DNA of 64,000 bases from Variovorax paradoxus (GTDB lineage Bacteria > Pseudomonadota > Gammaproteobacteria > Burkholderiales > Burkholderiaceae_C), in assembly GCF_009755665.1 (NCBI RefSeq), contig NZ_CP046622.1:2542001-2606000 (forward strand). The letters run 5' to 3'. The notes under the pieces are model-generated. The model ran no database searches, was not told the DNA's origin, and worked only from the letters and a program-made list of their open reading frames with translations. The position numbers and the translations under genes were made by a program. Of the stretch, positions 11,381 through 58,302 are shown piece after piece. Position 1 is the stretch's first letter; each line of letters starts with the position of its first letter.

Positions 11381-11393
11381 ATCGACGCTTCGA

Positions 11394-15441: not shown

Positions 15442-15460
15442 GATACCAGGAAACCTCTTC

Positions 15461-16249: not shown

Positions 16250-16292
16250 GCCGGACCGCGGATACCTCAATTTTCAACAGGGATACACAAAC

Positions 16293-19873: not shown

Positions 19874-19930
19874 CCGTGTTGCACCAGGCAATTCAACCCC
19901 ACCATCCCCAGGAAGCCTCCGGAGACAGAC

Positions 19931-20314: not shown

Positions 20315-20316
20315 CC

Positions 20317-24203: not shown

Positions 24204-24204
24204 G

Positions 24205-27384: not shown

Positions 27385-27438
27385 GTGCGCCGTCTCGTCG
27401 CGCGCAGCAGACGCTTTGGAATTCACGAAAGATCTCTC

Positions 27439-30079: not shown

Positions 30080-30082
30080 CAA

Positions 30083-30637: not shown

Positions 30638-31584
30638 CGCGTGCTGCCGTACGTACTGTGGGGGAGCGCGATCGACGTGCGCGGCTGCCGTTGCATCTCG
30701 CCATCTGGCTTGTGCTGTTGGCCGTCTGCCTGTTTGCCTGGCCGGTCAGTGATGCGCGCGCGCAGGCAGAGCCGGAATCGGTTCCCGCACCGGAGATGTC
30801 GGGCGGCACCGTGTCCCCGGCGGCCACTCCTCCTGTGGCACAGCCGGCACCCGCACCAAAAACTGCCGAGACCAGGACTGCTCCCAAAAGCGGCAGCAAG
30901 TCGAATGCAGCGCCGCTGTCTTCGAGCGCACCGGTGCTTTCAGGCACTCCCGCCACCGAAACGGCGCAGGCCCTGCGGGTGGTGCTCGGCCTCACGGTGC
31001 TGGCCATCCTCCCGGCCCTGGTGGTGTGTCTGACGAGTTTCCTGCGCATCATCGTGGTGCTGTCGATGCTGCGCCATGCCATTGGCATGAACGAAACGCC
31101 GCCCAATACCGTGTTGATCGGCCTGGCGCTCTTTCTGACCCTGTTCACCATGTCTCCGGTGCTGCAGAAGCTCAATCAGGATGCCTTCGAGCCGTTCATG
31201 GCCGGAAAACTCTCGGTCGAGGAGGGCTACGGCAAGGGCATTGCGCCATTGCGCGACTTCATGGTCCGTCAGACGCGTGAAGCCGATCTGGCGTTGATGG
31301 TGGAACTGTCGAAGGCGCCCATTCCCAAGTCGATGGACGACATCAGCAACGTGCAACTCATCCCGTCGTTCATGCTGTCGGAATTGCGGGCTGCATTCCA
31401 GATCGGGTTCGTCATCTTCCTGCCCTTCCTGCTGATCGACCTGATCGTGTCGAGCATCCTGATGGCGCTGGGCATGATGATGATGCCGCCCACCACCATC
31501 GCGCTGCCGCTCAAGATACTGATGTTCATCCTGGTCGATGGCTGGAGCCTTGTGCTCAAGGCACTGGTCGGCAGTTTCCATTGA
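30634..31584 (+). CDS. fliP: Export gate protein FliP with long periplasmic N-terminal extension
   Basis: It encodes 316 residues against about 245 usual. After a signal peptide ending near SDARA there is a roughly 60-residue Pro/Ala/Ser-rich stretch (about 42-105). The canonical FliP follows: LTSFLRIIVVLSMLRHAIG, QTPPN-like ETPPNTVLIGLALFLTLF, IPSFMLSELRAAFQIGF and MMMMPPTTIALPLKI are all present. FliP is the main pore subunit. The extended N-terminal linker is unusual and its role is unknown. Start ATG 30634 overlaps fliO by 4 bp. Confidence 0.93.
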   Translation: MTRAAVRTVGERDRRARLPLHLAIWLVLLAVCLFAWPVSDARAQAEPESVPAPEMSGGTVSPAATPPVAQPAPAPKTAETRTAPKSGSKSNAAPLSSSAPVLSGTPATETAQALRVVLGLTVLAILPALVVCLTSFLRIIVVLSMLRHAIGMNETPPNTVLIGLALFLTLFTMSPVLQKLNQDAFEPFMAGKLSVEEGYGKGIAPLRDFMVRQTREADLALMVELSKAPIPKSMDDISNVQLIPSFMLSELRAAFQIGFVIFLPFLLIDLIVSSILMALGMMMMPPTTIALPLKILMFILVDGWSLVLKALVGSFH

Positions 31585-31597
31585 GACGACGCGCACG

Positions 31598-44100: not shown

Positions 44101-47100
44101 GCGACCAGGACCGTGTTACCGACTACCTGTACGACGACGCCAACCGGCTGCGGTACGAACTGCGCTACACCAATACGTCCGATCTGGTGTCGGGCGTGGG
44201 CGAGATGCGCCAGGTCACCTCCTACGACTACGACGGTGTGGGCCGGCTGGTGCGCCAGACCGCGCATGCGTGGCCGCTGTTCAGCTCCGTGCCCAACGAC
44301 ATCGATGCCGTCTTCGGCAATCTCACCGTCGCGCCCGACATGGACCAGGCGCAGTACATGGTGTACGACGCCGCAGGGCGGCTGGCCTGGCGCGTCGACG
44401 GCGTGGGTGCGGTCACGCGCAACACCTATGACGGCGTCGGCCGCGTCGTGCGCACTGCCCAATATGCACGGCCCATCGACGTTCTGGGCTTCAGCGGTGT
44501 CGCAAACGGCTACACCATTGCGCCGCTCACCGAGAGCGCCATGCTCACGGCTGTTCAGCCCGACGCCGGCGCCGACCGCGTGTCTGTGTTCGCCCACGAC
44601 GGCGCAGGCCATCGGACCTTCACGGTCGATGCCTTGGGCGGCGTCACCCGCAGCGTCTACGACGCCTTCGGCAACGTGACCCAGCAGATCGGCTACGCCA
44701 ACCCCATCGCTGCGCCCACTGCCGCCACAACCTACACCGATGCGGCCCTGCAGGGCGCCGTCTCTGCCAACGCGGGCGTCGACCGCATCCAGCGCTTTGC
44801 CTACGACCAGGCCAACCGCCAGGTCTTCGCTGTCAACGCCCAGGGCGCGGTCACCGAATCCATCTACGACGGCCTGGGGCAGGTCGTCCAGAGCCGCGGC
44901 TATGCGCAGGCCCTCAACGTCGCCGGGCTGAGCACCACCGCCAGCGTGAGCGACATCCGTTCCCGCACGGCACTTGACGCCGCCAACGACCGTGTGTCCT
45001 CCCACGTCTTCAATGCCGGCGGACAAGAAATCTACAGCGTCGATCCCCTGGGCTTCGTCAGCAAGACCGACTACGACGGGCTCGGGCAGGTGCGCGCCAC
45101 CTTGCACTATGCGCTGTCCATCCCTGCCGGCACCGCCAGCACCTCCGCCGCCATTGCCGCGGCTGTCGTCACCAGCGCCGAAGACCGCAGCAAGAGCTTC
45201 CAGTACGACGCCGCAGGGCGCGTTCTGTCCAGCGTCGACGGGGACTTCACCGAGTCGTGGACCTACGATGCGCTGGACAACAAGACCAGCTACACCAATG
45301 CCAAGACCTTGGTGTGGCAGTACGAATACGACCGCAGCGGCCGCATGCTGCGGGAGATCTCCCCGCCGGTCGAGCTCACCGCTGTCACGGTCGGCGGCGA
45401 TGGGCGGCTGCAGGTCAACGCCGGCTCGAGCGGTATCGGCAACGTCATCACCGTGCTGGCCTACGACAGCTTCGGCAACCTGCGCAGCCGCACGGAAGGA
45501 GCGGGGCGGCCCGAGCAGCGCACCACCACGTACGAATACGACCAGGTGGGACGCCAGGTCAAGGTCATCTACCCGCCGGTGGGCGTGTACAACCCCTCGG
45601 GCGACACCTTCGCCGTCGATGGGCTGGACGGCCGCCACGACACCGTCCAGACCCTCTACACCCAGACCACCTACGACGCGCTAGGCAATGCCGTTGCCAA
45701 CCGCGACATCGGCGGCAACTACAGCTACAAGACCTACGACCTCGCCGGACGCGTGGTCCATGAGGTCGATGCCCTGGGCTTCGTCACCGGCTACAGCCGC
45801 AACATCTTCGGCGATGCGACCGTGCTCACCCGCTACGGCGTCGCGACCGGCCTGGCGGCAGGGCATCCGCCGAGCCTGGGCCGCGCACAGGTCCAGGCCA
45901 CGGTCGATGCGCTGGTTCACGATGCCGATCGCACCTTGTCGACCACGTACGACCGCCTGGGCCGGGGCATCGAGGTGCGCGAGGCGGCTGCCTACGTTCA
46001 CGAGGGCGGCAGCAGCACTGCGCAGGATACCTTCGCGGGCAAGACGACCCGCAACACCTACAACACCTTCGGTGAACTCACCCAGGTGGCACAACTCAAG
46101 AGTGCGGGCACCTGGACCCTGAGCACCCACTTCTACGACCGCCGCGGCCAGCAGATTGCCAGTGTCGATGCGATGGGCTACCTCACCACCCAGGCGTTCG
46201 ATGCGGTGGGCAACGCCACCATGCGCATCGAATATGCGAAGGCGGTGAGCTGGGCCGGCACCAGCAGCCTGGCGGGCTGGACCGGTGCGGTCAACGCAGG
46301 CGGCACGCCGCCGGCTCCCGTGGCGGACGCCAACAACGACCGCCGCGTGGACACCACCTACGACCGCAACAACCGCAAGACGAGCGAGATCCGGCGCAAC
46401 GTGGAGTACAGCTCCGCGTCCAACGGCACCAGCACGCGCGGCGACCTGACCACCAGCTACGGCTACGACGCCGTGGGCAATCTCACGCGCACCACCGACG
46501 CCAAGGGTGCCTCCACCTACAGCTACTACGACGCGCTGGGCCGCGTCACTGCCGTGGCCGAGCCCACGCGCGCGGGCAGCGACGGCGCAACCCCGGTCAC
46601 GCCGCTGACCGTCTTCCGCCGCGATGCCTTCGGCAACGTGGTCATGAAGACCGAGTACCTCAACGGCGCCGATGCCGAGGGCAATCCGTTGGCACCCAGC
46701 CCGCTGCCGCCCTACGCACTGGCGCCCAATACGGAGGTCGCCTTCATCGAGGGGAATCCCCTCTGGGCCAAGGAGGGTGTGGTGGGCTACATCGCAAGCG
46801 CTCCTTTCGAGGGCGGAACGGCGCTGTACAGGATCAACAACACCTACTTCGGCAAGCACCTCTACACCACCAACCTGTCGGAGTACCAGTCCTGGCTGGC
46901 AATGCCCTTCGTGGTGGGCGAGGGCATCCAGGGCTATGTCGCCACGGCCGAGCAACCGGGCAGCATCAGGCTGTACCGGCTCACATCCGCGCAGCCGGGC
47001 TTCGTCGATGTCGTCTACACCACCAGCCTGGCGGAAGTCCAGGCGCTCACCAGCAACCCCCAATACCCGTACGTCGTGGACGAGGGGCAGCCCGTCTATC

Positions 47101-50100
47101 TGGGAGGCAGTGCAGCGGGCCCCTTCGATGCGCAGCTGACACGGTACGTGGGGCCATCGCTGTCGTTCATGACCGGCTTGGACCACCTCTACCTGCCCGA
47201 CCGGAAGCCGGTGGATGCCTGGGGCGACGCCGACACGCTCGCCCGCACCGACCGCACCAGCTATGCCCAGTACGACGCGCTGGGCCACACGGTGCAGAGC
47301 ACCGATGCCATGGGCGTCAACCACTACAGCTCCTACAACAGCCTGGGCCTGATCGCCAAGGAATGGCAGGGCGTGACCGACAACGCAGGCACCGTGCGCA
47401 CGCTGTACCGCGCGTATGAGTACGATGCCCTGGGCCAGCAGACGCACATCTACGATCCCGGCACGTCGACCGACAGCGCCGACTACACCCAAGGCGCGGC
47501 CGCAACCAACGGGATCTACACCACTCGGCCGCGCGCCGTGGTGACACCCGGCGCGTACGGCAGCGGCACAGGCGAGGGCGAGGGCGGTAACCCGGTGCCG
47601 TCGCCCGACGGCAATGCGCCGCCGATAGCCAGCTACGGCAGCGTCGCACTGTCGCACTTGGCGAATCTGGTCAACGCCGCTGGCGGCGCGGTTCAGGTTC
47701 AACTCGACTTCATCACGCCCAGCTACGACGTCGCGGGCACGGAGAACACAGAACCGTCCACGGTGCCCGGCCATGCCGCCAGCTACTCCCGCACCTTCTC
47801 GGCGCCGGGCGAAGTGCTGCGGCCCGATGGCGTGACCATCTCCCCGGACAACGAGCCCATCGCCAGCGTCACGACCATCCGCATACTGCAATGGAACGGC
47901 GCGGCCTGGGTCACTCTCTGGCAAGGCAGCCCGGCCGAAGCCACCGGGCAGGACACGCTCAATGCGGGAGCCGGAGTGTCCGGCGCCAAAGTGGACACCG
48001 CCCTGGAATACAACGCATTCGGCGAACTGACGGCCAAGCGCGTCAATGGCCAGCTCGGCGAATACTTCGACTACGACCGTGCCGGGCGCCTGTGGCGCAC
48101 CAACGCGGGCGACGGCGTGGACAAGATCGCGCTGTACGACCTGCAGGGCCGCCAGACTGCCGACATCCGCAGTGCCGGCTCGGGGCGCGGCGACATCAAC
48201 CTGCGCAACGCTGCCGACGCCCAGCAGGTCGCGCAGCTGTCGGACGTGCGACGCACCGACACCACCTATGACCTGATCGGCCACATCCTGAGCCAGGCCC
48301 TGCCGGAACGCCAGGAGGTGCAGGGCGGGGTCAGTGTGCGTACCGATGCGCTGGTGGGCGGAATCGCCTCCCGTGCTGTTCGCGGCAGCCAAGGCTGGAG
48401 CGGCACCAACACCGTCAACCTGGGCTGGAACGCGCTCGGAGGCCTGGGCAGCGGCGACGTGCGCGTCGACCTCTACTACATCCCCATCGATGCACAAGGC
48501 AACGAGGGGCCCGAACAGGTCAAGAGCCAGACGCTCAACGCCACGCAAGGCAACGGCGGCGCCAGCTTCAGCTGGAATCCCGCTGCCGGCGAAGGCTACG
48601 GTGGCATTGGCCGCATCTCGCGCGTCGTGGTGGCCAAGAAGGATCTCCAGGCCAACTGGCAGACGCTCATCTCGCAAAATGGTGTCGGCTATTCCGGCCA
48701 GAGCCTGCAGGTGGCGAGCCCGGACGATCCGAACGCCTGGGTGCAGGTGCAATACCGGCTGGCCGGCAGCAGCGGCGCGTGGAGCGAGCTCAGCACGGTG
48801 CGGTTCGGCGATGCGGCCCGAGGCGACCTTTCGGGGATCCCGTTGGGGCGCTACGAATACCAAGCCATCACCCATGCACCGGGTCAAAGCGACCGCACCA
48901 CCTCCATGGGCGTCTTCGAAATCACGCCGCGGCCCCTGGCCACATTCGGCGTGGCCGGTGTCAACGGGTCGGCGCAGACGCTCGACTGGCAAGGCCCCGG
49001 CGCGGGAGACCTGCAAACCATCCGGGTGCGCCCGGTGGGCGGCGGCTGGAGTGCGCCATGGGGCATCAGCCGAGCTGCAGGCAGCGACTGGAGCACCATC
49101 AATCTCTCGGGCCTGGGCGCGGGCCAATACGAGTACGAGATTCTGTGGACTCATCCCGGCGAAGCCGGGCCCTATGCCCATGCCACCGGCCAGATCCACA
49201 AGGTCGACGGCACGCCGGGCACACCCGGCACGCCGCCCACGCCTGCTCAAGGCCTGCCTCGCATCGACGGCCTGTACGTCGAATCCCGGCAAGAACAGAT
49301 CGGCAATGACGAGCAGACCGGTCCCATTTATCAAACGGTCTTCGTGGTGCGGGTGCCCGGTCCGCCCGCAGGCTCTATCAGCAGCTTTGGCGTGCGCATC
49401 AAGGGCAGCGGCAGTGGCTTCCTGCCCCTTCAGGTTCGGCTTCGGAGCGATTTCGGCTGGGAAGTCAACATCACCAGCGCCCATCTGTCTCCCGGCCTCT
49501 ACGAATACGTCTACAGCTTTCATCCTGGCCTCGGTGCGGCGGCCACGGCTCACGCCCTTGGCGACCTGGCGCTCAATGGTGCGGGAATCGTTTCCATCAC
49601 CGACACCACGCCGGCCTACGTTCCCGCGACGCCTGGCACCCCCGGCACGCCGCCGACACCGCCGCAGTACGGATGGGGCGCGACCGACATGGGTCCGTAC
49701 CCGATCAGCCAGGATCCGCTGCTTGGCGGCCGCGTCATCGGCCAGAGCGCCGGCCTGAACGGCCTGGACGGCTACCAGCGGCCGTTGGTCAAGCAGACCT
49801 TCGACCGCTGGGGCAACGTGCTGAGCATCAACGACCCGCGTTCCACCGCTTGGGTGACGAACTACAGCTACAACGCCAACAACCAGATGGTCCGCCAGGT
49901 GCAGACCGACGCGGACGGCAACTCGGGCGTGGATGCCAACGGCAACGTCAGCAATGCCAACGCGCCGGTCACCCGGATCTACTACGACGCCATAGGGCGG
50001 CAGGTGGCGGTTCGCGATGCCAATGGCAACGTCAACGGCCAGGAGTGGGATGCGGGCGGCAACCTCGTACGCGAACTCCATGCGGATGGCAACGGTGTCG

Positions 50101-53100
50101 ACACCGGCGTGGTCAGGCATGCCTACAACGCCTTCGGAAACAAGGTTCGCACCATCGATGCCAAGAACTATGCAACGGCGTTCGTGTTCGACAAGCTCGA
50201 CCGGCAGGTACGCACCACCTTCGAATCGGTGGGCATCAGCCAAAGCCAGCGGTGGGACCAGGCCGGTCGCCTGCTCTCGCAGACCAACGGCGCGGGCGAG
50301 ACTGTTCGCTACGATTACGACCTGCGCGGCAACCTGATCAAGACCACGCAGCCGCTGGGCCAGAGCACCCGGGCCGGCTACGACGCGTTCAACCGCAAGG
50401 TTGTGGAGGTGGACGGCAACGGCGCGCTGGCCACCTGGAAGTACGATTACTTCGGCCAGCTGCAAGGCCACAGCGACATCGGCGGGGCCAACTATGCCTA
50501 CAGCTACGACAACGCACGCCAACTGGTAGCGCAAAGCAACAGCCGGGGCCAGAACCGCGTTTACGGCTACGACGCAGCCGGCCAGCAGACCCGCATCCAG
50601 GATGTTGCCGTCGGCCAGACCAGCAGCTACCGCTACGACCTGTCGGGCCGCCGCGTGCGCGAAGTCACCGTGAAGGGCAATGTCACCTACCAGGACAATC
50701 ACATCGCCTATGACGCGCTCGGGCGCATGCGCTGGGTGAGCGATGCGCGCGCGGTGCTCACCATCGACTACGACAAGGTGGGCAACCGCACGCACATCCA
50801 CACCCACTTGAACGATGCCGGCGTGAGCACGCTGCCCCCGGACAGCGACCGCTACTACCAGTACGACGCCATGAACCGCCAGACCTTGGTGGATTCGGCC
50901 ACCGCCGACGGCTCTTACCTGGGGCCGGACGGTCATCGCCTGACCTATGACTACAACGGTCTGCGCGCCAGCGACAAGCACGAAGGCATCCGCATCGTGC
51001 AGCAGGGCGACGGCCAGTGGGTCGTGCAAGCGGGCGGCGAAACCGAGGAGGTCTACGACTACGACGGCATGAACCGGCTGACGAGCACCACCCGCGACGG
51101 CACGGCGGTGGACTCGCGCTCCTATGACGGCGCCAGCCGTGTGATCGCCAGCGGCGTGGCGGATCTGGATCCCCAGTACACCGCGCTGCACACGCAACAC
51201 CATGGCGGCAGCGACCCGCTCCAGGTGCGCCAGAGCCAATACGACGACAACGGCCGGCTCGTCTACCAGAGCACGCTGGCCCATGTCTCGCCCTTTGTGA
51301 GCCCCACCAGGCAGAGCTTCAGCGGCGTTGGCTACACCTACGACGACGCGGGCAACGTGCTGGGCTACGTCACCGCCAACGCGGATCCGGCGAACCCGAC
51401 CTTCGTCACCACCACCAACACGCTGCAGCGCGCCGAAGGCTACAGGCAGCTCACCAGTGTCAGCCAGAGCCGCTCGGCCACAACGGGTGCCCCGGGTGCG
51501 CAGGGCGGTGTGGGCTACAACTACGACGTCAACGGCTTCCTGACGCACACCGGAGACCCGGGCAACCAGAGCGTCACGCAGAACCACTTCTTCGTCAACG
51601 ACGCGAACGGTACGGCGCTGTACGCCTACTACGGCGATCCGGCGAACCCGACCCAGGGCCAGCGGCAGCTGGTGGTCAACGGAGAGGTGCTGGGGCGCTA
51701 TGGCTGGGTGCCCGACGAGCTCTACGCGGGCATCAGCTTTCCGGTGCCGGGCTTCACGCCCTACACGCAGAAGGCGAGCTTCAGCTTCGGCTACCAGCCC
51801 ATCAACGGCAACTACCCGGCGGGCACGCCCGGCACCTACGCGGTGGGCGCGGGCGACACGCTGCAGAGCATCGCCAAGGGGGCGTATGGCGATGCGAACC
51901 TGTGGTATCTGATCGCGGACGCCAACGGGCTGGGCGGCAACGCCGAGATGCGCGTGGGGCAGGTGCTGACGATACCGGCGCATGTGTCCAACGCGAACAA
52001 CAGCGGCACGTTCAAGCCCTACGACCCGAGCAAGATCATGGAGGGCACCAGCCCGACCATGATGGCGATGCCGCAGGGCCAGGATGGCGGCTGCGGGGCC
52101 GTCGGGCAGATCATCATGATCGTTGTCGCTGTGGTGGTGACGATCTGGACCGCAGGGGCGGCTTCGGCGGCATTCGGTGCATCTAGTGCCTCCTTTGGCG
52201 CCACTGCAGGGGTCACTGCAGCTAGTGCTGCGACTGCTGGCACCACCTTCGCAAGCGGGCTTACTGCACTTGCCGGAGGCTACGGCGCAGTGGGTGCTGC
52301 TGCTGCTGCTGTAGGTGGCGCAGTAGGGTCCGTCGTGAGCCAAAGCGTAGGTATTGGAATCGAGGCACAAGATTCCTTTAGCTGGAAAGGAGTCGCTCTT
52401 GGCGCACTTGGTGCTGGTGTAACCGCTGGCCTTGGGAGCTATCTTGGGCCGATCAGCCAGAGTGTGCAAGGTATGGACAGGTTTGCTGCATACGCTGGCC
52501 GAGCTGCGCTATCCAGCGCGGTGACCCAGGGCCTCTCGGTCGTAACCGGACTTCAAAGCAGCTTTAGCTGGAGAAGTGTTGCGGCATCCGCGGCAGGCGC
52601 GGGCGTCGGTGCTGCGGTGGGTGGCGCGTTGGGCATGAATGATCCGGGTTTCGAGGCCCTGAACTTCGAAGACCAATTCGGTAAAAGACTTGTGACAGGG
52701 CTGACTGCTGGCGCGGCCACGGCCGCGATGCGAGGCGGACGCATCAGCGCGACTCAGGTTGCGATAGATGCCTTTGGCAATGCGTTGGGGGACTCCATCG
52801 CGGGGGCCAACGGGCAGAGTTCCAGAAGCGCTGGCGGCAGCGACTCGCTGGATGCGTTCCTCGCGCTGAACGACAACTTCAGCGGGGTGGACGTCAATGG
52901 CGGCCTGCCGATGGTCAGCGGGCGGAATTTCTCGCAGGATGCGCAGGCGCGCCAAGCGGGCCTTGACCGGCTGGGCATCCGGCAGATGACGCCGCAAGCT
53001 CCCGCTGCGGTGCCGTACGTCGACTCGGACAACTGGGATCTGATGGGCACTCCGCGAAGTGTGGGCGTCGCGGGTCGCGAGGCGTCACGCGGGGCCTGGG

Positions 53101-54230
53101 GCATTGCCGCTTCCCTGGTCGGAAAAGGTGCGAGCAACGCAGAGATCAACCAGGTCAAGAACCAGTTGCTGACCTTGAATCCCGAACTGGCCAATGGCGC
53201 GGAGTCGGGGCAGCGTTACTACGTGCCGGATGCAAACACCCCGGAGAACCTTGCGCTAGCACGAGGTGCTGATCGGGTCTATGCGACACAGGTGCAAGCC
53301 AGAGCTGATGCGCAAGCGCACGGGACGGCAAACGGGGCACAGGCAGCCATCTCGCGCAACGAGAACTATGGAAACGAGGGGCGCCAGAGTATGTTGGCTC
53401 GCGCGGACGACATTGCGCTTGTCGCGAGCGTGTTTGGGAAGAGCCCAGCGATTCCTGCACCCGTCGCAGCACCAGCCCAATGGAGCGTTGCTGAGCAGTC
53501 ATCACCGATGGCGCGAGGCTCAACAATTGAGCAGGTCCGGGCGGGGGGGCTCGATGTAAGGGGCGGGCCGTCTAGCTTTGCGCAAGGAATGGATTTTGGA
53601 AGTTTGCAGGGTCAGGAGTTGACGCCATTCCAACGAAAGTTAGGAGAGTTTTCGATCGACATCCCGAAGATGCCGGGGAACATCGTCGTGGGTGCCGCTG
53701 AGGGGGGGCTGAATCTTTTGTGGGGCGCTATTCCTGGTGCGCCAGATTACGTACCAATGTTGAATTCGCTGCGAGTGCCATATAACAGCCCCGCTTCGGA
53801 ATACGGGGAATTTGGGTTGGGGTTGGCCACCGCCGCTATGGCTTCCAAGACTAAGAATCAGAATGTCGAATTCGCCGGTGGAACTCAAGTCTATGTATCA
53901 GACCTAACTCACGTCACCGGTCGTGGTGCGGTTGCGAGAAATCGAGCCATCGAGGTGGTAATTAAAGAAGATTTTCCAGATCTTCAATTGACCTATACGC
54001 CAAAGTACAGCCCCTTTATCGGACATGGGGTCGCCGAGAGAGGGAGTGGTACGCAGATCGGCAAGAAGCCGTTTGCGTCGCGCGCATCTTTGCGAGACAC
54101 GATAGTTCACGAGGAGCTACATCATCGATGGTGGGAACGTGGTATTTATGATCATCATCCTCTAGGAAGTGCAAAGGAGGCACGGTTTTACGAGACGGTA
54201 GAGCGCTATATTCGCATGCGAGGTTGGTAA
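35130..54230 (+). CDS. Giant RHS/YD-repeat protein with Ig-like repeats, LysM and HExxH tip (RHS-2)
   Basis: It encodes about 6,366 residues. The start is GTG 35130, or ATG 35142 after TGAGG. There is no signal peptide. Domains by residue: YD-repeats about 30-790; twelve Ig-like (Big_3-type) repeats about 790-1975, each ending in a YSGD/YAGD-type motif; more YD-repeats 1980-3860; a DUF5648-like block about 3870-4020; the block shared with RHS-1 about 4310-4690; an RHS core to about 5550; LysM about 5567-5623; Gly/Ala-rich hydrophobic helices about 5650-5830; boundary motif DAFGNALGDSI near 5880; then a unique tip. The tip ends with HEELHH at 6327-6332, an HExxH zinc-protease-like motif, suggesting a metallopeptidase toxin (inference). 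The Ig repeats suggest cell contact. The gene for a candidate immunity protein follows directly. Confidence 0.9.
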   Translation: MRLSMVAIVSGNSLGLSLGSQATLGQRGQTGTAGQGRSGEQAYVNAATGNLVLQTRDELLLGRGPDTVSLRTYNSQGQLSDDNADNWAVGAFGQRMLLTGTVATAGSTLTRTDRDGAQAVYTWDAARNLYVSTAGAGAFDTIAHDAGASQFIWTDGDSGLTERYQASGQGRLVSAADASGNTVSYTYNANGTVQSATAANGDVTHYDYSGTNLTQIRTVTAGGATSTRVRYAYDGSNRLSTVTVDLSPDDNSVADGKTYVTTYTYDGASRRVASVSQSDGTSLAFTYVQAGGVYKVQSVTDALGAVTTFAYDTAAGTTTVTDALGAAAVYLYDAQGQLVQVRQGVTAGNPAGLSQVSYVYDAAGNLTLVTDGEGHKVALTYDERGNLLKEVDSAGDTRTRTYSAANQLLTDTLYADAATSRGAFSKEAALPETVRYVYAQNNPYQLRFTVSAQGNVTEYSYDANGLRTSAVEYAGAPYDTAALAQTAVPTEAQMTTWRQGQDLTRSQRTDYTYDGRGELQTATTYGAVNASGQGDPATAATTQYIYDPRGLLLQKIEPGATAGVSHYVYDGLGRLLSASGPSLDGGATANVTVTSYDDANARTTVTLASGLVTISAYDRAGRLVSVTQTSVGTGVLGTTTYAYDKDGNLLMTQDPTGVRKWMLYDAADRKIADIDATGAVIEYVYNANGQLRQTIAYATPIGTAALVDGVGKPTTAWSATNTATGLDAIRPAATARDQKVWRFYDTANRLTWQVDALGYVKQTTYDGASRILSVTQLANPIDVTQLGNGANIELLIDPATVGGISLNVGAAPAPLGTAVTLTATIEGTNPGGMVTFFSGETVIGSAAVVNGVATLVTTELPVGGHSIRAAYSGDVQRPASISPIALKTISGATTSAALSFSSRFDAYGGAFGTHPSYGQAVTLSVALTTMQPPGLASAAGEVKFYNGTVLIGTATVIGGLAMLEIASLPVGNLNIRAEYAGDAMHAAVTSSPQSLTISPNPTKTVLVVSGSESALNLSASVGTASLFPISPSGTVTFYNGATVVGSAALVNGIASIQIAGPASAAAFKAVYSGDAINATSNTSGQNGAVVRSPTATTLTASATGVTQGEPVTLTAQVAGAAPSGLVTFFAGATFLGRASVVNGVATLVTNYLPLGASVLQASYGGDANNQGSVMAAGPSVQVAAGSTTVPAPTVTNSVGLSQGYSPKSVLGVPVGLYANLYPSSGSSGGTFSIFEGQTLLGVGSGGSFQIPPLSLGTHNLTAVYSGDASNPAGVSGTVQIVIEKAPPAIEVTSSRSQATAGSPLTLMAKIAVRGTDIYYDGAFNGPPVTGPVTFYSNGTAIGTADVINGVATLTLSSLPLGTASITASYAGDASYQAVSLESRLALYQQIVASTQAVSTTTTLTIAQTTGSYSPPILTAVVTAGEGSLLAPAGTVSFYNGLELLGTVALVNGQASLSADQLPVGRPTLRAVYSGDAGNAASAADLFGISVVKASETTLAVSATSVTQGEAVTLTAQVAGTAPSGVVTFFAGATFLGRASVVNGVATLVTNYLPLGASVLQASYGGDANNQGSVMAAGPSVQVAAGSTAVPAPTVAANSVTLSQGSVPRPVLGIPVGLRASLYPSSGSSGGTFSIFEGQTLLGVGSGGSFQIPPLSLGTHNLTAVYSGDASNPAGVSRTVQIVIEKAPPAIEVTSSRSQATAGSPLTLMAKIAVRGTDIYYDGAFNGPPVTGPVTFYSNGTAIGTADVINGVATLTLSSLPLGTASITASYAGDASYQAVSVESYRALSQQIVAAPVESFVGLTTSPAAPVYGAPLILTATPTGQGNPEGGTVSFYDGAVLLGTVALVNGKATLSVSTLDVGSHSIKAVYSGDANNATSQITSSVTITKAPVTLTNLTAASIAKDGSLSVQVGGVAPGGLVSFYQGLRLLGTAQVVNGVATLSGVFLPPGTQTFTAAYTGDAHYLDGELSFSQVVQGTPVTTIYAALDIQQDRTVTELYNRDGRLQGTLDAEGYLTEYKYNAAGELVQTVRYANRAANFANLPARLAAVAIARASYNLSGLRPSTNSSADIHAYNLHDAQGRLVGQVDGEGYLTETLYDARGNVTQIIRRANPTGAVNGTSTLDSIRPAVDAARDQVTIQAWSAANQLLTRTNAEGTVTQFAYDSVGQLVQTTTAVGTTDERTSRALYDIQGRLIGQLDGRGSDAVALTDPFALWTANGLTHTYDAAGRRTSTTDANGHRTLFFYDPIGRLAYTVNAMGEVTESRYNALGQLAEEVVYGSRVDVVTLGATTPGGLNTASLASQLAAVADPAKDTHVLHTYNATGTRASTTDALDSATSYSYNAFREATATTYALKSGYVVTDTASYDRRGLLTRSVSDATTLAITRRQTYDAFGRVTERFDGNGNRSQVGYDRLGRIVTTVDALNASRTTSYDAFDRVLTQRDALNNTTSYSYNTANRSTTVTTPEGVTLTTVRTRQGQTQSVTDGRGNTTSYSYDKSGNLLQTSAALDATTTVATGSTYDKTGLVLTHTDANGVLTNFTYDAANRLFTRTVDPTGLNLVTSYGYDAKGQTVSVTDARGVVTATQYDLNGQVLHQTVDPAGLNLVTTYAYDTTGQVLRVTTPNGSTTQYTYDGAGRRVKEQVDPDGLDLTRRYEYDAANNVVRIVDANGHATRQAYDADNRLVFTLDALGNVTRQEYDAEGRVVRRTSYALPIDSTGLGNAPTVAQIQVKVVASAGVDLVESRRYDRDGRLRFSVDGTGAVVAYTYDQANNVVETRAYANRINLATWNIASDPPVNADTARDERVRTVYDALNRATWKVDGAGNVVQYFHDANGNVTESRAYATALTSAALGNWNGTSAPPVAADATRDQRSRSVYDTANRATWNVDALGNVTQYSYDANGNIDAQRRYATPLTAAALAAWDGRTAPAPVADDAHDARVRNVHDAANRLTWSVDGIGAVSKTEYDGNGNITRRASYRNPVGEGTDPAQVVASDQDRVTDYLYDDANRLRYELRYTNTSDLVSGVGEMRQVTSYDYDGVGRLVRQTAHAWPLFSSVPNDIDAVFGNLTVAPDMDQAQYMVYDAAGRLAWRVDGVGAVTRNTYDGVGRVVRTAQYARPIDVLGFSGVANGYTIAPLTESAMLTAVQPDAGADRVSVFAHDGAGHRTFTVDALGGVTRSVYDAFGNVTQQIGYANPIAAPTAATTYTDAALQGAVSANAGVDRIQRFAYDQANRQVFAVNAQGAVTESIYDGLGQVVQSRGYAQALNVAGLSTTASVSDIRSRTALDAANDRVSSHVFNAGGQEIYSVDPLGFVSKTDYDGLGQVRATLHYALSIPAGTASTSAAIAAAVVTSAEDRSKSFQYDAAGRVLSSVDGDFTESWTYDALDNKTSYTNAKTLVWQYEYDRSGRMLREISPPVELTAVTVGGDGRLQVNAGSSGIGNVITVLAYDSFGNLRSRTEGAGRPEQRTTTYEYDQVGRQVKVIYPPVGVYNPSGDTFAVDGLDGRHDTVQTLYTQTTYDALGNAVANRDIGGNYSYKTYDLAGRVVHEVDALGFVTGYSRNIFGDATVLTRYGVATGLAAGHPPSLGRAQVQATVDALVHDADRTLSTTYDRLGRGIEVREAAAYVHEGGSSTAQDTFAGKTTRNTYNTFGELTQVAQLKSAGTWTLSTHFYDRRGQQIASVDAMGYLTTQAFDAVGNATMRIEYAKAVSWAGTSSLAGWTGAVNAGGTPPAPVADANNDRRVDTTYDRNNRKTSEIRRNVEYSSASNGTSTRGDLTTSYGYDAVGNLTRTTDAKGASTYSYYDALGRVTAVAEPTRAGSDGATPVTPLTVFRRDAFGNVVMKTEYLNGADAEGNPLAPSPLPPYALAPNTEVAFIEGNPLWAKEGVVGYIASAPFEGGTALYRINNTYFGKHLYTTNLSEYQSWLAMPFVVGEGIQGYVATAEQPGSIRLYRLTSAQPGFVDVVYTTSLAEVQALTSNPQYPYVVDEGQPVYLGGSAAGPFDAQLTRYVGPSLSFMTGLDHLYLPDRKPVDAWGDADTLARTDRTSYAQYDALGHTVQSTDAMGVNHYSSYNSLGLIAKEWQGVTDNAGTVRTLYRAYEYDALGQQTHIYDPGTSTDSADYTQGAAATNGIYTTRPRAVVTPGAYGSGTGEGEGGNPVPSPDGNAPPIASYGSVALSHLANLVNAAGGAVQVQLDFITPSYDVAGTENTEPSTVPGHAASYSRTFSAPGEVLRPDGVTISPDNEPIASVTTIRILQWNGAAWVTLWQGSPAEATGQDTLNAGAGVSGAKVDTALEYNAFGELTAKRVNGQLGEYFDYDRAGRLWRTNAGDGVDKIALYDLQGRQTADIRSAGSGRGDINLRNAADAQQVAQLSDVRRTDTTYDLIGHILSQALPERQEVQGGVSVRTDALVGGIASRAVRGSQGWSGTNTVNLGWNALGGLGSGDVRVDLYYIPIDAQGNEGPEQVKSQTLNATQGNGGASFSWNPAAGEGYGGIGRISRVVVAKKDLQANWQTLISQNGVGYSGQSLQVASPDDPNAWVQVQYRLAGSSGAWSELSTVRFGDAARGDLSGIPLGRYEYQAITHAPGQSDRTTSMGVFEITPRPLATFGVAGVNGSAQTLDWQGPGAGDLQTIRVRPVGGGWSAPWGISRAAGSDWSTINLSGLGAGQYEYEILWTHPGEAGPYAHATGQIHKVDGTPGTPGTPPTPAQGLPRIDGLYVESRQEQIGNDEQTGPIYQTVFVVRVPGPPAGSISSFGVRIKGSGSGFLPLQVRLRSDFGWEVNITSAHLSPGLYEYVYSFHPGLGAAATAHALGDLALNGAGIVSITDTTPAYVPATPGTPGTPPTPPQYGWGATDMGPYPISQDPLLGGRVIGQSAGLNGLDGYQRPLVKQTFDRWGNVLSINDPRSTAWVTNYSYNANNQMVRQVQTDADGNSGVDANGNVSNANAPVTRIYYDAIGRQVAVRDANGNVNGQEWDAGGNLVRELHADGNGVDTGVVRHAYNAFGNKVRTIDAKNYATAFVFDKLDRQVRTTFESVGISQSQRWDQAGRLLSQTNGAGETVRYDYDLRGNLIKTTQPLGQSTRAGYDAFNRKVVEVDGNGALATWKYDYFGQLQGHSDIGGANYAYSYDNARQLVAQSNSRGQNRVYGYDAAGQQTRIQDVAVGQTSSYRYDLSGRRVREVTVKGNVTYQDNHIAYDALGRMRWVSDARAVLTIDYDKVGNRTHIHTHLNDAGVSTLPPDSDRYYQYDAMNRQTLVDSATADGSYLGPDGHRLTYDYNGLRASDKHEGIRIVQQGDGQWVVQAGGETEEVYDYDGMNRLTSTTRDGTAVDSRSYDGASRVIASGVADLDPQYTALHTQHHGGSDPLQVRQSQYDDNGRLVYQSTLAHVSPFVSPTRQSFSGVGYTYDDAGNVLGYVTANADPANPTFVTTTNTLQRAEGYRQLTSVSQSRSATTGAPGAQGGVGYNYDVNGFLTHTGDPGNQSVTQNHFFVNDANGTALYAYYGDPANPTQGQRQLVVNGEVLGRYGWVPDELYAGISFPVPGFTPYTQKASFSFGYQPINGNYPAGTPGTYAVGAGDTLQSIAKGAYGDANLWYLIADANGLGGNAEMRVGQVLTIPAHVSNANNSGTFKPYDPSKIMEGTSPTMMAMPQGQDGGCGAVGQIIMIVVAVVVTIWTAGAASAAFGASSASFGATAGVTAASAATAGTTFASGLTALAGGYGAVGAAAAAVGGAVGSVVSQSVGIGIEAQDSFSWKGVALGALGAGVTAGLGSYLGPISQSVQGMDRFAAYAGRAALSSAVTQGLSVVTGLQSSFSWRSVAASAAGAGVGAAVGGALGMNDPGFEALNFEDQFGKRLVTGLTAGAATAAMRGGRISATQVAIDAFGNALGDSIAGANGQSSRSAGGSDSLDAFLALNDNFSGVDVNGGLPMVSGRNFSQDAQARQAGLDRLGIRQMTPQAPAAVPYVDSDNWDLMGTPRSVGVAGREASRGAWGIAASLVGKGASNAEINQVKNQLLTLNPELANGAESGQRYYVPDANTPENLALARGADRVYATQVQARADAQAHGTANGAQAAISRNENYGNEGRQSMLARADDIALVASVFGKSPAIPAPVAAPAQWSVAEQSSPMARGSTIEQVRAGGLDVRGGPSSFAQGMDFGSLQGQELTPFQRKLGEFSIDIPKMPGNIVVGAAEGGLNLLWGAIPGAPDYVPMLNSLRVPYNSPASEYGEFGLGLATAAMASKTKNQNVEFAGGTQVYVSDLTHVTGRGAVARNRAIEVVIKEDFPDLQLTYTPKYSPFIGHGVAERGSGTQIGKKPFASRASLRDTIVHEELHHRWWERGIYDHHPLGSAKEARFYETVERYIRMRGW
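38410..39306 (+). repeat. Tandem 0.9-kb repeat in RHS-2, unit 1
   Basis: It encodes three Ig-like domains. It is almost identical at DNA level to 39610-40509, offset by 1,200-1,203 bp. Between the units lies one different Ig-like domain (about 39307-39609). The copies differ by few substitutions and small in-frame changes, so the duplication is recent. Confidence 0.92.
39610..40509 (+). repeat. Tandem 0.9-kb repeat in RHS-2, unit 2
   Basis: This is the second copy of the three-domain Ig-like block at 38410-39306. The long perfect stretches (for example around 39810-39890 and 40195-40400) could support recombination that expands or shrinks the stalk. They are also a likely place for assembly collapse. 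Confidence 0.92.
48054..49203 (+). repeat. Long block shared with RHS-1, copy 2
   Basis: This is the counterpart of 1250-2395. Right after it RHS-2 carries a roughly 450-bp segment encoding a Pro/Thr-rich linked domain flanked by TPGTPGTPPTP-type linkers. RHS-1 has a DUF5648-like domain at the same place. Homology then resumes at about 49674 (copy 1 about 2928). Confidence 0.9.
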
Positions 54231-54235
54231 GGAAA

Positions 54236-54673
54236 ATGGATATGCAGGATCCGACAAATATGAGTCAATTTACGGCTTGCCCCAGATGTGGGTTCGATGA
54301 CGCGGTCAAGGTCGGGCAATCTAGTCGCGGAGGCACGCTTCGATGGTACGAGAGCATAAATTGCTCCAACTGCGGCATGCATGCCGAAGTGGACGGGGAA
54401 GGCTTCCCCCCCGCGGAGATTCGTCAACGCTTGGTCGCGACCGAAGGATTATGGGTAGTTCAACTGTCGGATATGAAATCCGGAGTGATAGTCGGGAAGG
54501 TGTTGCGCGAAGCTTTAGGTCTCGACATGAAGCAGGTGTCCTCCCTAGTCAAAGGGCTGCCTGGTATTGCATACACCGGTACCAAAGGGGAGTCAGCGTG
54601 GATATTAGATCTACTACGTGCTGCAGGTGAATCGCCGCACATGAGTATGAGTGGGTCACCCATCAAGCTTTGA
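54236..54673 (+). CDS. Candidate immunity protein: zinc ribbon plus L7/L12-like domain
   Basis: It encodes 145 residues. Two CxxC pairs (CPRCGF and CSNCGM) form a zinc ribbon at about residues 12-40. The C-terminal 55 residues (GVIVGKVLREALGLDMKQV, SSLVKGLPGIAYTG, WILDLLRAAGE) resemble the C-terminal domain of ribosomal protein L7/L12. ATG 54236 lies 6 bases after the RHS-2 stop with AAGGA overlapping that stop; ATG 54242 is also possible. Codon use and lower GC than neighbours suggest the pair was acquired together with the RHS-2 tip. Immunity is inferred from position. Confidence 0.65.
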   Translation: MDMQDPTNMSQFTACPRCGFDDAVKVGQSSRGGTLRWYESINCSNCGMHAEVDGEGFPPAEIRQRLVATEGLWVVQLSDMKSGVIVGKVLREALGLDMKQVSSLVKGLPGIAYTGTKGESAWILDLLRAAGESPHMSMSGSPIKL

Positions 54674-54989: not shown

Positions 54990-56063
54990 GTGGGTCTATC
55001 GCACCTCTTTTTTCTTTCTCACCGTCCGTCGACGGCTCTTTCCATGTACATGACCATGCTCACGAACCACATCCGTGCGGTCAAAAGGTGGGGTGAAAAA
55101 CATTCGGCGCAGTCCTCGATCGATGTCGACTCGTTTCAGATGGAGGTGAAGGCAAGGAATCGCTTCTTCACCCTGCACCCCCAATTCCGGGTTCGCATCA
55201 ACGGACAGCTGGCCAACGTGAGCAAGTTCTCGAACGAGACCACGGGTTTCTTGGGCTGGCTTCCCTATCAACCGGTGCGATGGGCGCTTTCGACCGACAA
55301 GCTCCTGTTCAAGGCCTACATGGCAGAGCACGCGCTTCGCACGCCGGCTTGGTGGCTGCCGCCGGAGCAGCCCGATCAGGATTTCATCTTCAAAGGAGCC
55401 ATGGGTTCCTTCGGCCTGCATATCGTCGGGCCATTTCGCGCTGACGCTGCCCAGGCGGATGAACTGGGCAGCTCCGCATCTCCGAAAGAGACCCGCTATG
55501 CCGAGCAATTCGTTCCAGGCGTCAATCTCAAGCTGTGGGTCTGGGGGCGAACCATTTTTCATGTGCACGCCCATCCATATTCGACAGTGATCGGCGATGG
55601 CACCCGTAGCGTCGATGAGCTGATTGAGCAACTCGCCCGTGCCCAGTCGCCTCAGATGCCCCGGCCTCGAGGCGATGCCGAAGCAGTAGCGGTGTCGCTC
55701 GCGTACCAAGGGTGCACCCGCGACGAGGTGCTGCCCCGCGGAAAGTCGGTGTGGCTCGACTTTCGCTATGGGCGAGGCTATGAGTCTCCACCGACCACGG
55801 AGGCGGCAGACAATGCATTACCGAATTTACCCGGTACCCTCCTGCAGCAGGCCAGGCAGGCGGTCGAGGTGCTCGCCAGCGATCTCGAAGCCCGCTTTTC
55901 CGCGCCGGTCTTGTATTCCCTGGACGGTGTTCTCGATGACAGCGGAAACGCCTGGTGGCTCGAAGTGAATTCGAATCCCACGCTGCCGCCCAGTGGTTAT
56001 ACCCACATCTTTTCCACGTTGTTCGGAACTCAGGCCGACACATCAGATTTTCTGGGCAGTTAG
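54990..56063 (+). CDS. ATP-grasp ligase, candidate peptide-modifying enzyme
   Basis: It encodes 357 residues from GTG 54990 (339 if ATG 55044 is used; neither has a strong ribosome binding site). ATP-grasp features are a nucleotide-binding lysine in FIFKGAMGSFG (about residue 135), YAEQFVPGVNLKLWVWG, VIGDGTRSV (about 201-208) and the metal-binding LEVNSNP at 324-330 (E325, N327, N329). The family joins a carboxylate to an amine, thiol or alcohol through an acyl phosphate. The N-terminal 100 residues are not a standard pre-ATP-grasp fold I recognise and may bind the substrate. It is followed at 52 bp by a small-peptide gene and three dioxygenase genes. It resembles RimK/graspetide-type ligases in general plan, but I cannot assign a subfamily. 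Confidence 0.8.
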   Translation: MGLSHLFFLSHRPSTALSMYMTMLTNHIRAVKRWGEKHSAQSSIDVDSFQMEVKARNRFFTLHPQFRVRINGQLANVSKFSNETTGFLGWLPYQPVRWALSTDKLLFKAYMAEHALRTPAWWLPPEQPDQDFIFKGAMGSFGLHIVGPFRADAAQADELGSSASPKETRYAEQFVPGVNLKLWVWGRTIFHVHAHPYSTVIGDGTRSVDELIEQLARAQSPQMPRPRGDAEAVAVSLAYQGCTRDEVLPRGKSVWLDFRYGRGYESPPTTEAADNALPNLPGTLLQQARQAVEVLASDLEARFSAPVLYSLDGVLDDSGNAWWLEVNSNPTLPPSGYTHIFSTLFGTQADTSDFLGS

Positions 56064-56115
56064 TGCCCGCCATCCGCTTCGGCACCCGTCGAAGCACACT
56101 TCAGGAGAGCTCACC

Positions 56116-56448
56116 GTGCAGACACTTCAAAAGATTCAACCAGCGGACGCAAGCGAAAACATGGCTTCGGCGTTTTCAAGCGCAGAAAGCAACGTGCTGC
56201 CGCTCAAGCGGGAAGCAGCAACGGCCGTTCGAGAGATTGCAACGGGCTCCCACGCCCCGGTGGTGGTGGGGAGCATCTACCTCATCGGCGATGGCACACC
56301 CGAGAATCCGCTGCGAATCAACGTACCGGCACTGACCTCGGCCATCATCAACTCGATGACGAGCGCGAACTTCATGGCGCTTCAGAACGGCATTGCTGCT
56401 TGCAACAGCGCAGGTGCCACCGGCAGCATCGGAGCGGGTGGGGATTAA
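56116..56448 (+). CDS. Small 110-aa protein, candidate precursor peptide
   Basis: GTG 56116 follows AGGAG (56103-56107) with ideal spacing; the in-frame region upstream lacks such a signal. The first 45 residues are charged and helical (leader-like, with LPLKREAATAVREIA). The remainder is hydrophobic and Ser/Thr/Asn/Gly-rich, with one cysteine (Cys96) and ending ATGSIGAGGD. It contains several Asn, Asp, Pro and Thr residues that ligases and hydroxylases could modify (GDGTPENP, INVPALTS, AACNSAG). It lies between the ATP-grasp gene and three dioxygenases and abuts the first (stop 56446-56448, next start 56449). No known family is recognised; precursor function is inferred from context and size. 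Confidence 0.7.
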   Translation: MQTLQKIQPADASENMASAFSSAESNVLPLKREAATAVREIATGSHAPVVVGSIYLIGDGTPENPLRINVPALTSAIINSMTSANFMALQNGIAACNSAGATGSIGAGGD

Positions 56449-57060
56449 TTGTTCCCGAATCCGGTTCACATGGTCAGCGGCGGGATAGAGGTTTCGAAAA
56501 CCACTATCCCGCCCGAACTCATCCAGAGTTGCTTTTCTGTGTTCGAGACCGAGGAGCTCGAGTTGTCGTTCGACATCTACTCGAATGTCGGCGACGAAGA
56601 CAAAAGGCTGCGCAGGTCGAAGGAACTCAAGAGCCGCCAGCCCGAACGGTTCGCGCCGCTCTATCAGATGCTGGACGAATTCGTTCTTCAGTCGCTGTAC
56701 ACGCGCGGAGAGGGCTATTCGGGATCAGTTTCGCGGCAGCAATTCATGATCTATACCGAAGGCGCAGGGGCCGGGCTGCACGTCGACGATCAGTTCAAGC
56801 CGCCGCAGCAGTTCGGCCGCAACAAGTACGTCATGCACTTGCTCAACCAGTTTGCGGGCCTGCTGTACGTCAGCTCTGATGACCTGGAAGGCGGGGAACT
56901 GGTTTTTCCGACGCATGACGTCTCCGTGAAACCGCTGACGGGAACGCTGGTTGCGTTCCCCTCGAACTATCTTTTCCCGCATCTGGTGACGCCGGTGACA
57001 AGAGGGAAGCGAATCGCCATTGCACGGCACTACTATGTCAAAGATACGCCCGCTGTTTAA
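56449..57060 (+). CDS. 2-oxoglutarate/Fe(II) dioxygenase 1 (P4H-like)
   Basis: It encodes 203 residues from TTG 56449, directly after the stop of the small-protein gene with GGTGGGGA upstream; ATG 56470 is an alternative. The double-stranded beta-helix signature is complete: H111-V-D113 as the first two iron ligands, EGGELVFP in the middle, and H178 with Arg185 (FPHLVTPVTRGKR) for iron and 2-oxoglutarate. Family members hydroxylate peptidyl residues such as Pro, Asn or Asp. A candidate substrate is the peptide encoded just upstream. Confidence 0.8.
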   Translation: MFPNPVHMVSGGIEVSKTTIPPELIQSCFSVFETEELELSFDIYSNVGDEDKRLRRSKELKSRQPERFAPLYQMLDEFVLQSLYTRGEGYSGSVSRQQFMIYTEGAGAGLHVDDQFKPPQQFGRNKYVMHLLNQFAGLLYVSSDDLEGGELVFPTHDVSVKPLTGTLVAFPSNYLFPHLVTPVTRGKRIAIARHYYVKDTPAV

Positions 57061-57652
57061 CCCGTGCTTCACGGTGTCGACGCCAGACGGGCGCGACGGC
57101 ATCCGGACCAGGCACCTTGCCATTGAAGACTATCGGCAGGTCATCCAGGATGCCTGGAAGGCCAACCCGAAGCCTTCGAAGACATACAACACCGACCATG
57201 GCCGCGAGCGCGGCCGCATGAGTTTCGATGTCGACATGCCGGGCAAAGAAGCGCTTGTCGAAATTGTTCGCCAGCAGGTTGAAGCACTGGCCGGCGAGTA
57301 CAACTATGCGGGCCGAAACATCAGCCTCGCGTCCAGCCAGATACTGCTGTACTTCGAGGGCGCGGGCTGCCCCGTGCACTGCGACGATCAAGACCCGGCC
57401 GACAAGGACTATGGCTTGGGCACGGTCATGTTCAACTGGGCTAACCAACTGGTGGCGCTGCTCTATCTGTCCACCGAGGGCATCGACTTCGAAGGCGGCA
57501 AGCTCCACTTTCCCAACGCAAACCTGCAGATCGACGGCGTCGCCGGAAAACTGGTGACCTTCCCAGGGCACTTCAAGTACAAGCACGGCGTGACCGAGAT
57601 CCGGTCTGGCGCGCGGAGCTTGTTGCAGACCACCTGGAGGTTCGATCTGTGA
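57020..57652 (+). CDS. 2-oxoglutarate/Fe(II) dioxygenase 2
   Basis: It encodes 210 residues from ATG 57020 (AGGGAAG about 10 nt upstream), overlapping the previous gene by 41 bp; ATG 57035 would give 205. Iron ligands are H120-C-D122 (PVHCDDQD) and H189 (KYKHGVTEIRSGAR), with FEGGKLHFP between. It is clearly a paralogue of the flanking enzymes but divergent over the first 100 residues. This suggests a different site on the same substrate rather than a simple duplication. Confidence 0.8.
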   Translation: MHGTTMSKIRPLFNPCFTVSTPDGRDGIRTRHLAIEDYRQVIQDAWKANPKPSKTYNTDHGRERGRMSFDVDMPGKEALVEIVRQQVEALAGEYNYAGRNISLASSQILLYFEGAGCPVHCDDQDPADKDYGLGTVMFNWANQLVALLYLSTEGIDFEGGKLHFPNANLQIDGVAGKLVTFPGHFKYKHGVTEIRSGARSLLQTTWRFDL

Positions 57653-58302
57653 TCACCTACGCCGAGTCCATTCAAAAGCCGGACGCTGCCATCTTCCAGG
57701 GTGCTTGCGCCTTGCCTGTCGATTCCTGCGTGGCTCACATCGAGAGCCAGTTGCTTGCCAACGAATATCGCGTGCACGAGGTCTATGGCCGCGATGGCAA
57801 TTCAATCATCGATACGCGATACCGGGACAGCAAGGCCATCGTGCCCCGCCATGACGAGGAACTGGCGTTCCATATCTACGAGTCGGTCTACCAATATTTC
57901 CTGGCAAATTTTTCAGCGCATCCTTCAGACAGCCTCGTGCTCGCGCAGACCGAATTCTTCGCGTACGCGCCGGGCGTCGGTCTGAAAATGCACTCGGACG
58001 ACCATGCACGTGGAGCCGACGGCAGCATTTTGAAGCTGGACGTTCAACGCGGAATCACCGCCATCCTGTATCTCAATTCAGACTTTGACGGCGGAGAGAT
58101 CCACTTTCCAAAGCAGGGCCTTGAACTGCGACCGAGTACGGGAACGCTGGTCATCTTTCCGTCGAACAGAAATTTCCCGCATGAGGTGAGGCCGATCGTG
58201 CGCGGTCAGCGGTACTCGTACCAACGCATCTATGGCATTCTGAACGGACGGGCTGCAAGTTTTTTGACCACGAATGAGGCCTCCGAAGCCGCCACACGAT
58301 AG
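57649..58302 (+). CDS. 2-oxoglutarate/Fe(II) dioxygenase 3
   Basis: It encodes 217 residues from GTG 57649, overlapping dioxygenase 2 by 4 bp (GTGA), so the two are coupled. Ligands are H115-S-D117 (KMHSDDH), then DGGEIHFP, and H178 with Arg185 (FPHEVRPIVRGQR). The ligand spacing matches dioxygenase 1 closely. It is the last gene of the set. Confidence 0.82.
   Translation: MITYAESIQKPDAAIFQGACALPVDSCVAHIESQLLANEYRVHEVYGRDGNSIIDTRYRDSKAIVPRHDEELAFHIYESVYQYFLANFSAHPSDSLVLAQTEFFAYAPGVGLKMHSDDHARGADGSILKLDVQRGITAILYLNSDFDGGEIHFPKQGLELRPSTGTLVIFPSNRNFPHEVRPIVRGQRYSYQRIYGILNGRAASFLTTNEASEAATR

Follow-up and report, generated by a model that had tools for sequence, protein, structure and literature searches.

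A five-gene Variovorax cassette of an ATP-grasp ligase, a putative precursor peptide and three dioxygenases, with YcaO-linked relatives

Corallotide, a group 15 graspetide from Corallococcus, combines an ATP-grasp ligase and a 2-oxoglutarate/Fe(II) (2OG) enzyme of family PF13640 on one ribosomal peptide, and an oxygenase pair in graspetide group 18 as well as some dioxygenase-rich predicted graspetide clusters have also been described (PMC13097080, sections consulted). A Makarova-type survey (PMC8939145, sections consulted) places ATP-grasp genes next to YcaO/TfuA in one branch and, in other loci, next to a SagB-like nitroreductase. Here we describe a 64,000-nucleotide stretch of Variovorax paradoxus (contig NZ_CP046622.1, positions 2,542,001 to 2,606,000; hereafter the window, whose numbering is used unless a locus or contig is named) from a host genome, G000, of 5.57 Mb in a single contig. 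Five genes follow one another there, encoding an ATP-grasp ligase, a 110-residue putative precursor (PEP) and three dioxygenases (D1, D2 and D3), and we read them, with moderate confidence, as a candidate operon for a ribosomally made, post-translationally modified peptide (RiPP). Genomes are numbered G, loci L and contigs C.

55044..56063, + strand: ATP-grasp ligase, called mechanically from GTG 54990, likelier start ATG 55044
56103..56109, + strand: Shine-Dalgarno-like AGGAGAG ahead of the PEP start, present in 4/4 five-gene loci, role putative
56116..56448, + strand: PEP, 110-residue putative precursor peptide, GTG start at 56116
56449..57060, + strand: D1, predicted 2OG-Fe(II) dioxygenase, TTG start immediately 3' of the PEP stop
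57035..57652, + strand: D2, divergent predicted 2OG-Fe(II) dioxygenase, sharing 26 bp with D1
57649..58302, + strand: D3, predicted 2OG-Fe(II) dioxygenase, sharing 4 bp with D2

All five open reading frames listed in a first-pass annotation of this DNA (an ATP-grasp, a 110-residue protein and three dioxygenases) were found, spanning 55044-58302; one correction was needed, ATG 55044 being a likelier ligase start than GTG 54990, because close homologues start with MYMTML. The last four genes do abut or overlap, with gaps of 0, −26 and −4 bp in 4/4 loci. The full cluster is present in four Variovorax genomes, G000 (the window), G082 (L002, V. beijingensis), G090 (L019) and G076 (L020), with synteny over all five genes. 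Across the other five-gene loci, identity to the window was 67-90% for the ATP-grasp, 80-94% for PEP, 84-96% for D1, 85-97% for D2 and 71-84% for D3. All pairs among the four loci gave dN/dS values of 0.04-0.19 for all five genes, indicating purifying selection, and since this holds for every gene, the cassette is more than a chance arrangement. These results confirm that the five-gene cluster is real and conserved; in all four loci a short gene-encoded putative precursor stands beside modifying enzymes and is maintained together with them by selection, as in RiPP clusters. The ATP-grasp had 63 matches in the protein database; an equally long longest contig was shared with a PEP homologue by 8 of 18 ATP-grasp homologues of at least 51% identity and by none of 45 others, which suggests that ATP-grasp and PEP homologues lie on one contig.

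The ligase motifs, earlier called intact, proved invariant at K104, K135, D312, E325 and N327 (numbered from 54990) in 21 aligned sequences including the window; we take these residues to be the nucleotide and metal positions. Pfam returned a weak match to YheC/D-type ATP-grasp proteins, and the AF2 model (pLDDT 86.6) resembled best, among the structural matches listed, cyanophycin synthetases and other ligases. For the dioxygenases, the reported HxD...H...R motif was complete in all 12 D1, D2 and D3 proteins over the four loci. D1 (40.8 bits) and D3 (49.5 bits) exceed the Pfam cut-off for PF13640, and D2 (25.0 bits) lies just under the cut-off of 27; the nearest solved relative of D1 is PiuC, and those of D3 are prolyl 3-hydroxylase 1 and PiuC. 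By motif and profile, all three are predicted members of the 2OG-Fe(II) dioxygenase superfamily.

The databases contain 30 PEP proteins, the window's own included. Positions 51-90 are the most conserved and 11-20 the least, with the tail (101-110) intermediate, so that the C-terminal half is not variable as had been anticipated; within it just the last 10-20 residues vary more. Invariant positions include D59, T61, P65, N69, P71 and N79, and E63 is kept in at least 90% of sequences; no repeated donor/acceptor motif accompanies D59, T61 and E63. Family-model searches gave PEP no protein family above cut-off, it has no PDB relative, and its AF2 model shows a single helix (70-97) and no confident fold (mean pLDDT 57, pTM 0.30).

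We then consider the relatives of the ATP-grasp, which carry most of the weight. An ATP-grasp of this family occurs in 12/101 Variovorax genomes (12/100 in another count), the four with the five-gene cluster among them, and, with genomes beyond the genus included, we read the surroundings of 20 loci lacking PEP, which are every long ATP-grasp match found. Set aside were 56 of 68 matching genomes holding partial matches alone (mostly to query positions 150-290, in long frames that probably encode cyanophycin synthetases) and weak or broken extra matches in G047 and G092. Two of the searches behind these loci scored at most 5 candidates per genome, one of them with a limit of 1e-15, and some relatives may be missed. 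Family models were applied to L021, L027 and L062 (YcaO), L023 (radical SAM), L021 and L059 (2OG) and L027 (Hint, below cut-off), and partner genes at the remaining loci were assigned by BLAST to these members; L027 and L029, which come from two genomes, are near copies of each other.

A YcaO gene adjoins the ATP-grasp in 16 of these 20 loci, and in none of the four PEP-linked ones (the window, L002, L019 and L020). Identity of the ATP-grasp to that of the window is 31-42% in 15/16 YcaO-linked loci (the L113 protein was compared solely with another family member) and 29-33% in the four loci without YcaO. The YcaO frame is 730-895 codons long in 14 loci, and L025 and L062 hold YcaO alone (~390 codons); when tested, L021 and L027 gave a clear YcaO part together with a nitroreductase/SagB part, which passes the Pfam cut-off in L021 and narrowly misses it in L027. 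The further partner is a PF13640-type 2OG enzyme in L021, L059, L060 and L113, a PapB-like radical SAM enzyme in L022, L023, L024, L026 and L061, and a Hint-like protein in L027, L028, L029 and L063. Short peptides with a common middle and variable tails are present in 10/16 YcaO loci, one type in L021, L058, L059, L060 and L113, and a second in L022, L023, L024, L026 and, more distantly, L061.

In a tree of 24 ATP-grasps, the four PEP-linked rows form one clade (100/100) nested in a larger clade of 18 rows (100/99), the remaining 14 of which are all linked to YcaO; L113 and L063, also YcaO-linked, branch outside it. Because the PEP clade sits within the YcaO-linked clade, the simplest history is that YcaO was probably replaced by three dioxygenases in the window lineage.

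Other features of these loci are recorded here. The Hint-like frames (L027:5078-5950, L028:5960-6712, L029:11473-12240 and L063:7654-8418), which neighbour YcaO and the ATP-grasp, have in common a conserved N-terminal part of 60-80 residues; this part may be a precursor freed by the Hint domain. Glycosyltransferase-like genes recur near cassettes (L020:11973-13196, L060:9197-10534 and L063:3174-4556), with EryCIII-like_C above cut-off in L063 only. L062:6597-14372 and L025:8744-14931 combine a lone YcaO, pyridoxal phosphate (PLP) enzymes, an FkbM methyltransferase and 2OG enzymes (in L062 a TauD and another 2OG enzyme, with L025 similar) with the ATP-grasp and no evident short peptide; perhaps this is a larger, different pathway. 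Homologues of the ligase in a small-molecule pathway, which the first-pass annotation had named as a sign against a RiPP, are possible in these two loci.

From gene content, conservation, motifs and kinship, we infer a single operon in which PEP would be the substrate of the cassette enzymes. The ATP-grasp may consume ATP in activating a carboxylate, either on PEP itself or on an amino acid that it joins to PEP, with an ester or amide bond resulting, and D1, D2 and D3 may, in whatever order the reactions would run, hydroxylate PEP side chains, probably within 51-92 (which includes the invariant D59, T61, P65, N69, P71 and N79) or in the Gly-rich tail. Several interchangeable peptide-modifying cassettes would have this ATP-grasp in common. 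In the usual sister type it is accompanied by YcaO, which mostly carries a fused SagB-like part, and by a partner of the 2OG, radical SAM or Hint kind; in the window version, three dioxygenases would stand in for YcaO.

Several observations weigh against this reading. PEP is conserved where the cores of many RiPPs vary, and no dedicated maturation protease was seen among the five genes. The window ATP-grasp matches no NCBIfam graspetide-synthetase model at E up to 1, nor do 21 members at 0.01, and by structure and profile it is closest to amino-acid or poly-peptide ligases. A separate short peptide was not identified in 6/16 YcaO loci (the four with Hint, L025 and L062), L062 carries PLP enzymes and a methyltransferase, the sister-cassette peptides are unlike PEP as judged by eye, and the tree is midpoint-rooted with long branches flagged. 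The five genes indeed include no transporter or protease, as had been remarked; many RiPP clusters lack a dedicated one, so this absence does not exclude a RiPP. Overall, the earlier proposal of a RiPP-type peptide-modification cluster gains support, mainly from the YcaO-linked relatives with their short peptides, and its graspetide side finds none among the models.

PEP might instead serve as a carrier, to which the ATP-grasp joins an amino acid, the dioxygenases tailoring the attached residue before a small molecule is released, much as ArgX and LysX attach amino acids to the LysW carrier. We consider this improbable: a carrier would have a fixed attachment residue, whereas the C-terminal residue of PEP differs among the 30 sequences (ends GGD, GGS, GGE and IGP), unlike a LysW-type protein, and the sister cassettes hold YcaO with quite dissimilar short peptides. 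YcaO enzymes are known for acting on peptide backbones.

The cassette lies in a setting that the first-pass annotation had missed, as it had the YcaO-linked relatives: a giant Rhs gene and a second flagellar-type locus precede the five genes, in the order flagellar-type set, sigma-70, TPR, Rhs and cassette.

11075..31584, + strand: second flagellar-type gene set, with FlhA, FliI, FlgD, FlgE and a FliM/N-type C-ring protein by Pfam, FliF by kinship and the rest by eye
31538-32422, + strand: sigma-70-family gene, recurring beside related cassettes
32457-33689, + strand: tetratricopeptide repeat (TPR) gene, recurring beside related cassettes
35130..54230, + strand: giant Rhs/YD-repeat gene, 6366 codons, with a C-terminal Tox-MPTase5 domain (~53904-54230)
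54224..54673, + strand: 149-aa zinc-ribbon-like gene, possible immunity gene
58640-58897, + strand: AlpA-type regulator, a sign of a mobile island
59036-60316, − strand: tyrosine recombinase, a sign of a mobile island

Most flagellar gene names at this locus are presumed. The Tox-MPTase5 metallopeptidase end and the zinc-ribbon-like gene are perhaps a toxin/immunity pair.

The window Rhs N-terminus (145 residues) occurs in 15/100 Variovorax genomes, including 12/12 with the ATP-grasp (hypergeometric 4e-13, phylogeny ignored). A window-type FliF (at least 69% identity, vs ~30% for the common FliF) occurs in 13/100, including 11/12 ATP-grasp genomes, the exception being G047, a 330-contig assembly; 11 of the 13 carry the ATP-grasp, the exceptions being G023 and G086 (overlap 6e-12, phylogeny ignored). 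Flagellar-type genes lie within ~32 kb of the ATP-grasp on the same contig in 9/12 genomes (G000, G082, G090, G076, G061, G096, G081, G092 and G030), and in G060 and G087 the window-type FliF and the ATP-grasp are on separate contigs. Outside the genus, an Rhs-like match lies within ~11 kb in 5/7 YcaO-linked loci (G320, G445, G195, G869 and G230 (weak, short)) and flagellar-type genes are near two of the seven (G445 and G869).

This co-localization would also suit enzymes that hydroxylate or cross-link an Rhs or flagellar-type component, with PEP as an accessory or structural subunit, given Rhs in 12/12 and the second FliF in 11/12 ATP-grasp genomes and Pro-rich linkers, suited to prolyl hydroxylases, in the Rhs proteins of the window and V. 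beijingensis. Those linkers are found in just 2/4 PEP-linked genomes, the other two Rhs genes being partly read; D1 lies directly 3' of PEP; and 8/23 Rhs sites found in Variovorax (G076 at 275 kb, G061 C3 and C5, G096 C12, G060 C129, G086 twice and G097) lack an adjoining ATP-grasp when the whole genome is searched and, on the stretches read (some on one side only), lack flagellar-type genes. We regard such a target as improbable.

The window genome has two FlhA genes, that of the second locus at C1:2555408-2557408, and its flagellin matches (PF00669) are confined to 4.55 and 4.56 Mb, near the other FlhA (4.53 Mb), with none at the second locus in a search of the genome. Because flagellin matches lie solely near the other FlhA, the second set may be an export apparatus, and this setting could answer the point about a missing transporter; the cassette may have a functional link to export. 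The second flagellar-type set is flanked by two giant Rhs genes (C1:2529967 and C1:2577142, the latter at window 35142) whose N-termini are identical over 145 residues, the first of them apparently ending at ~window 7298. G090 apparently has two flagellar loci of the second type, on C27 and C28, and sigma, TPR and Rhs genes accompany each (L029 and L110).

A bolder proposal, rather unlikely in our estimate, is that this flagellin-less flagellar-type type III apparatus has turned into a locus for delivering weapons, with a giant Rhs toxin and an interchangeable modified peptide as its payload, the peptide being exported either as cargo or, in modified form, as an element of the tip or filament; the window peptide would be ligated and multiply hydroxylated, a new RiPP type from an ATP-grasp/YcaO ancestor, and would have no transporter of its own because it exits via the flagellar-type apparatus. 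The chief rival on the setting, compatible with any chemistry, has a chance slightly short of even: the second flagellar-type locus would be an integration hotspot and the cassettes passengers unlinked to Rhs or export. The AlpA and integrase genes flanking the window cluster fit this, as do the cassettes of G196 and G198, with no Rhs or flagellar-type match in the ~54 and 49.5 kb read, G023, which has the locus and Rhs and lacks the ATP-grasp, and G086, whose FliF lies megabases from its Rhs genes; the overlap statistics, moreover, take no account of phylogeny. Enterobacterial flag-2 loci have been described as cargo hotspots, one strain having an Rhs gene there (PMC6993521, sections consulted). 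Mere passengers fit less well with a payload that differs (PEP/2OG, YcaO/2OG, YcaO/radical SAM, YcaO/Hint), yet comes with the same ATP-grasp every time, and with a pattern that repeats in genera other than Variovorax and, in one case, in a different family (G445 and G869; in G195, Rhs beside sigma- and TPR-like genes). Should the setting prove functional, RiPP biosynthesis would be tied to flagellar-type secretion and Rhs toxins.

Compared with known systems, the flag-2 loci resemble the Variovorax locus, by description, in being a second flagellar locus with variable cargo and Rhs in at least one strain, and differ in that the sections consulted of PMC6993521 describe no peptide-modification cassette. 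Titles and abstracts in our literature search (mostly excluding subscription papers) yielded neither three 2OG enzymes joined with an ATP-grasp nor such cassettes tied to Rhs and a flagellar-type locus. Unlike cyanophycin synthetases, the window ATP-grasp lacks a Mur-ligase-like second half, has an open frame of 357 codons and adjoins a peptide gene. The sister cassettes share with TOMM/azoline RiPP clusters (SagB, YcaO) a TIGR03604-like YcaO part (156 and 145 bits, below the cut-off of 219) and a SagB-like part, whereas those clusters need a YcaO cyclodehydratase and the window cassette has none. The branches surveyed in PMC8939145 resemble the sister cassettes, likened by description only, in their YcaO and SagB-like partners, and the text consulted does not mention Variovorax, Burkholderi-, Rhs, oxoglutarate or dioxygenase.

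The corallotide cluster (PMC13097080, sections consulted) is also close, sharing with the window an ATP-grasp, a 2OG oxygenase of family PF13640 and a precursor that is unusually large. It differs in having one 2OG enzyme and a beta-lactamase where the window has three 2OG enzymes, in its TIGR04187 synthetase, a model without a match to the window ATP-grasp, and in the repeated KxxxD motifs of its precursor, of which PEP has none by eye. The earlier claim that the combination is undescribed therefore holds, within the papers searched, for three dioxygenases with this ATP-grasp family and fails for a ribosomal peptide acted on by both an ATP-grasp and a PF13640 2OG enzyme, which is published. 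Because ATP-grasp enzymes with 2OG, with YcaO and with SagB-like partners are each published, an ATP-grasp beside 2OG enzymes is not new as such and the window cassette is a variant; what is novel is the cassette with three dioxygenases, the YcaO-linked loci related to it and the setting beside flagellar-type and Rhs genes. The ATP-grasp family lies outside the NCBIfam graspetide models and is accompanied by short peptides together with YcaO, a radical SAM enzyme, a Hint protein or several 2OG enzymes.

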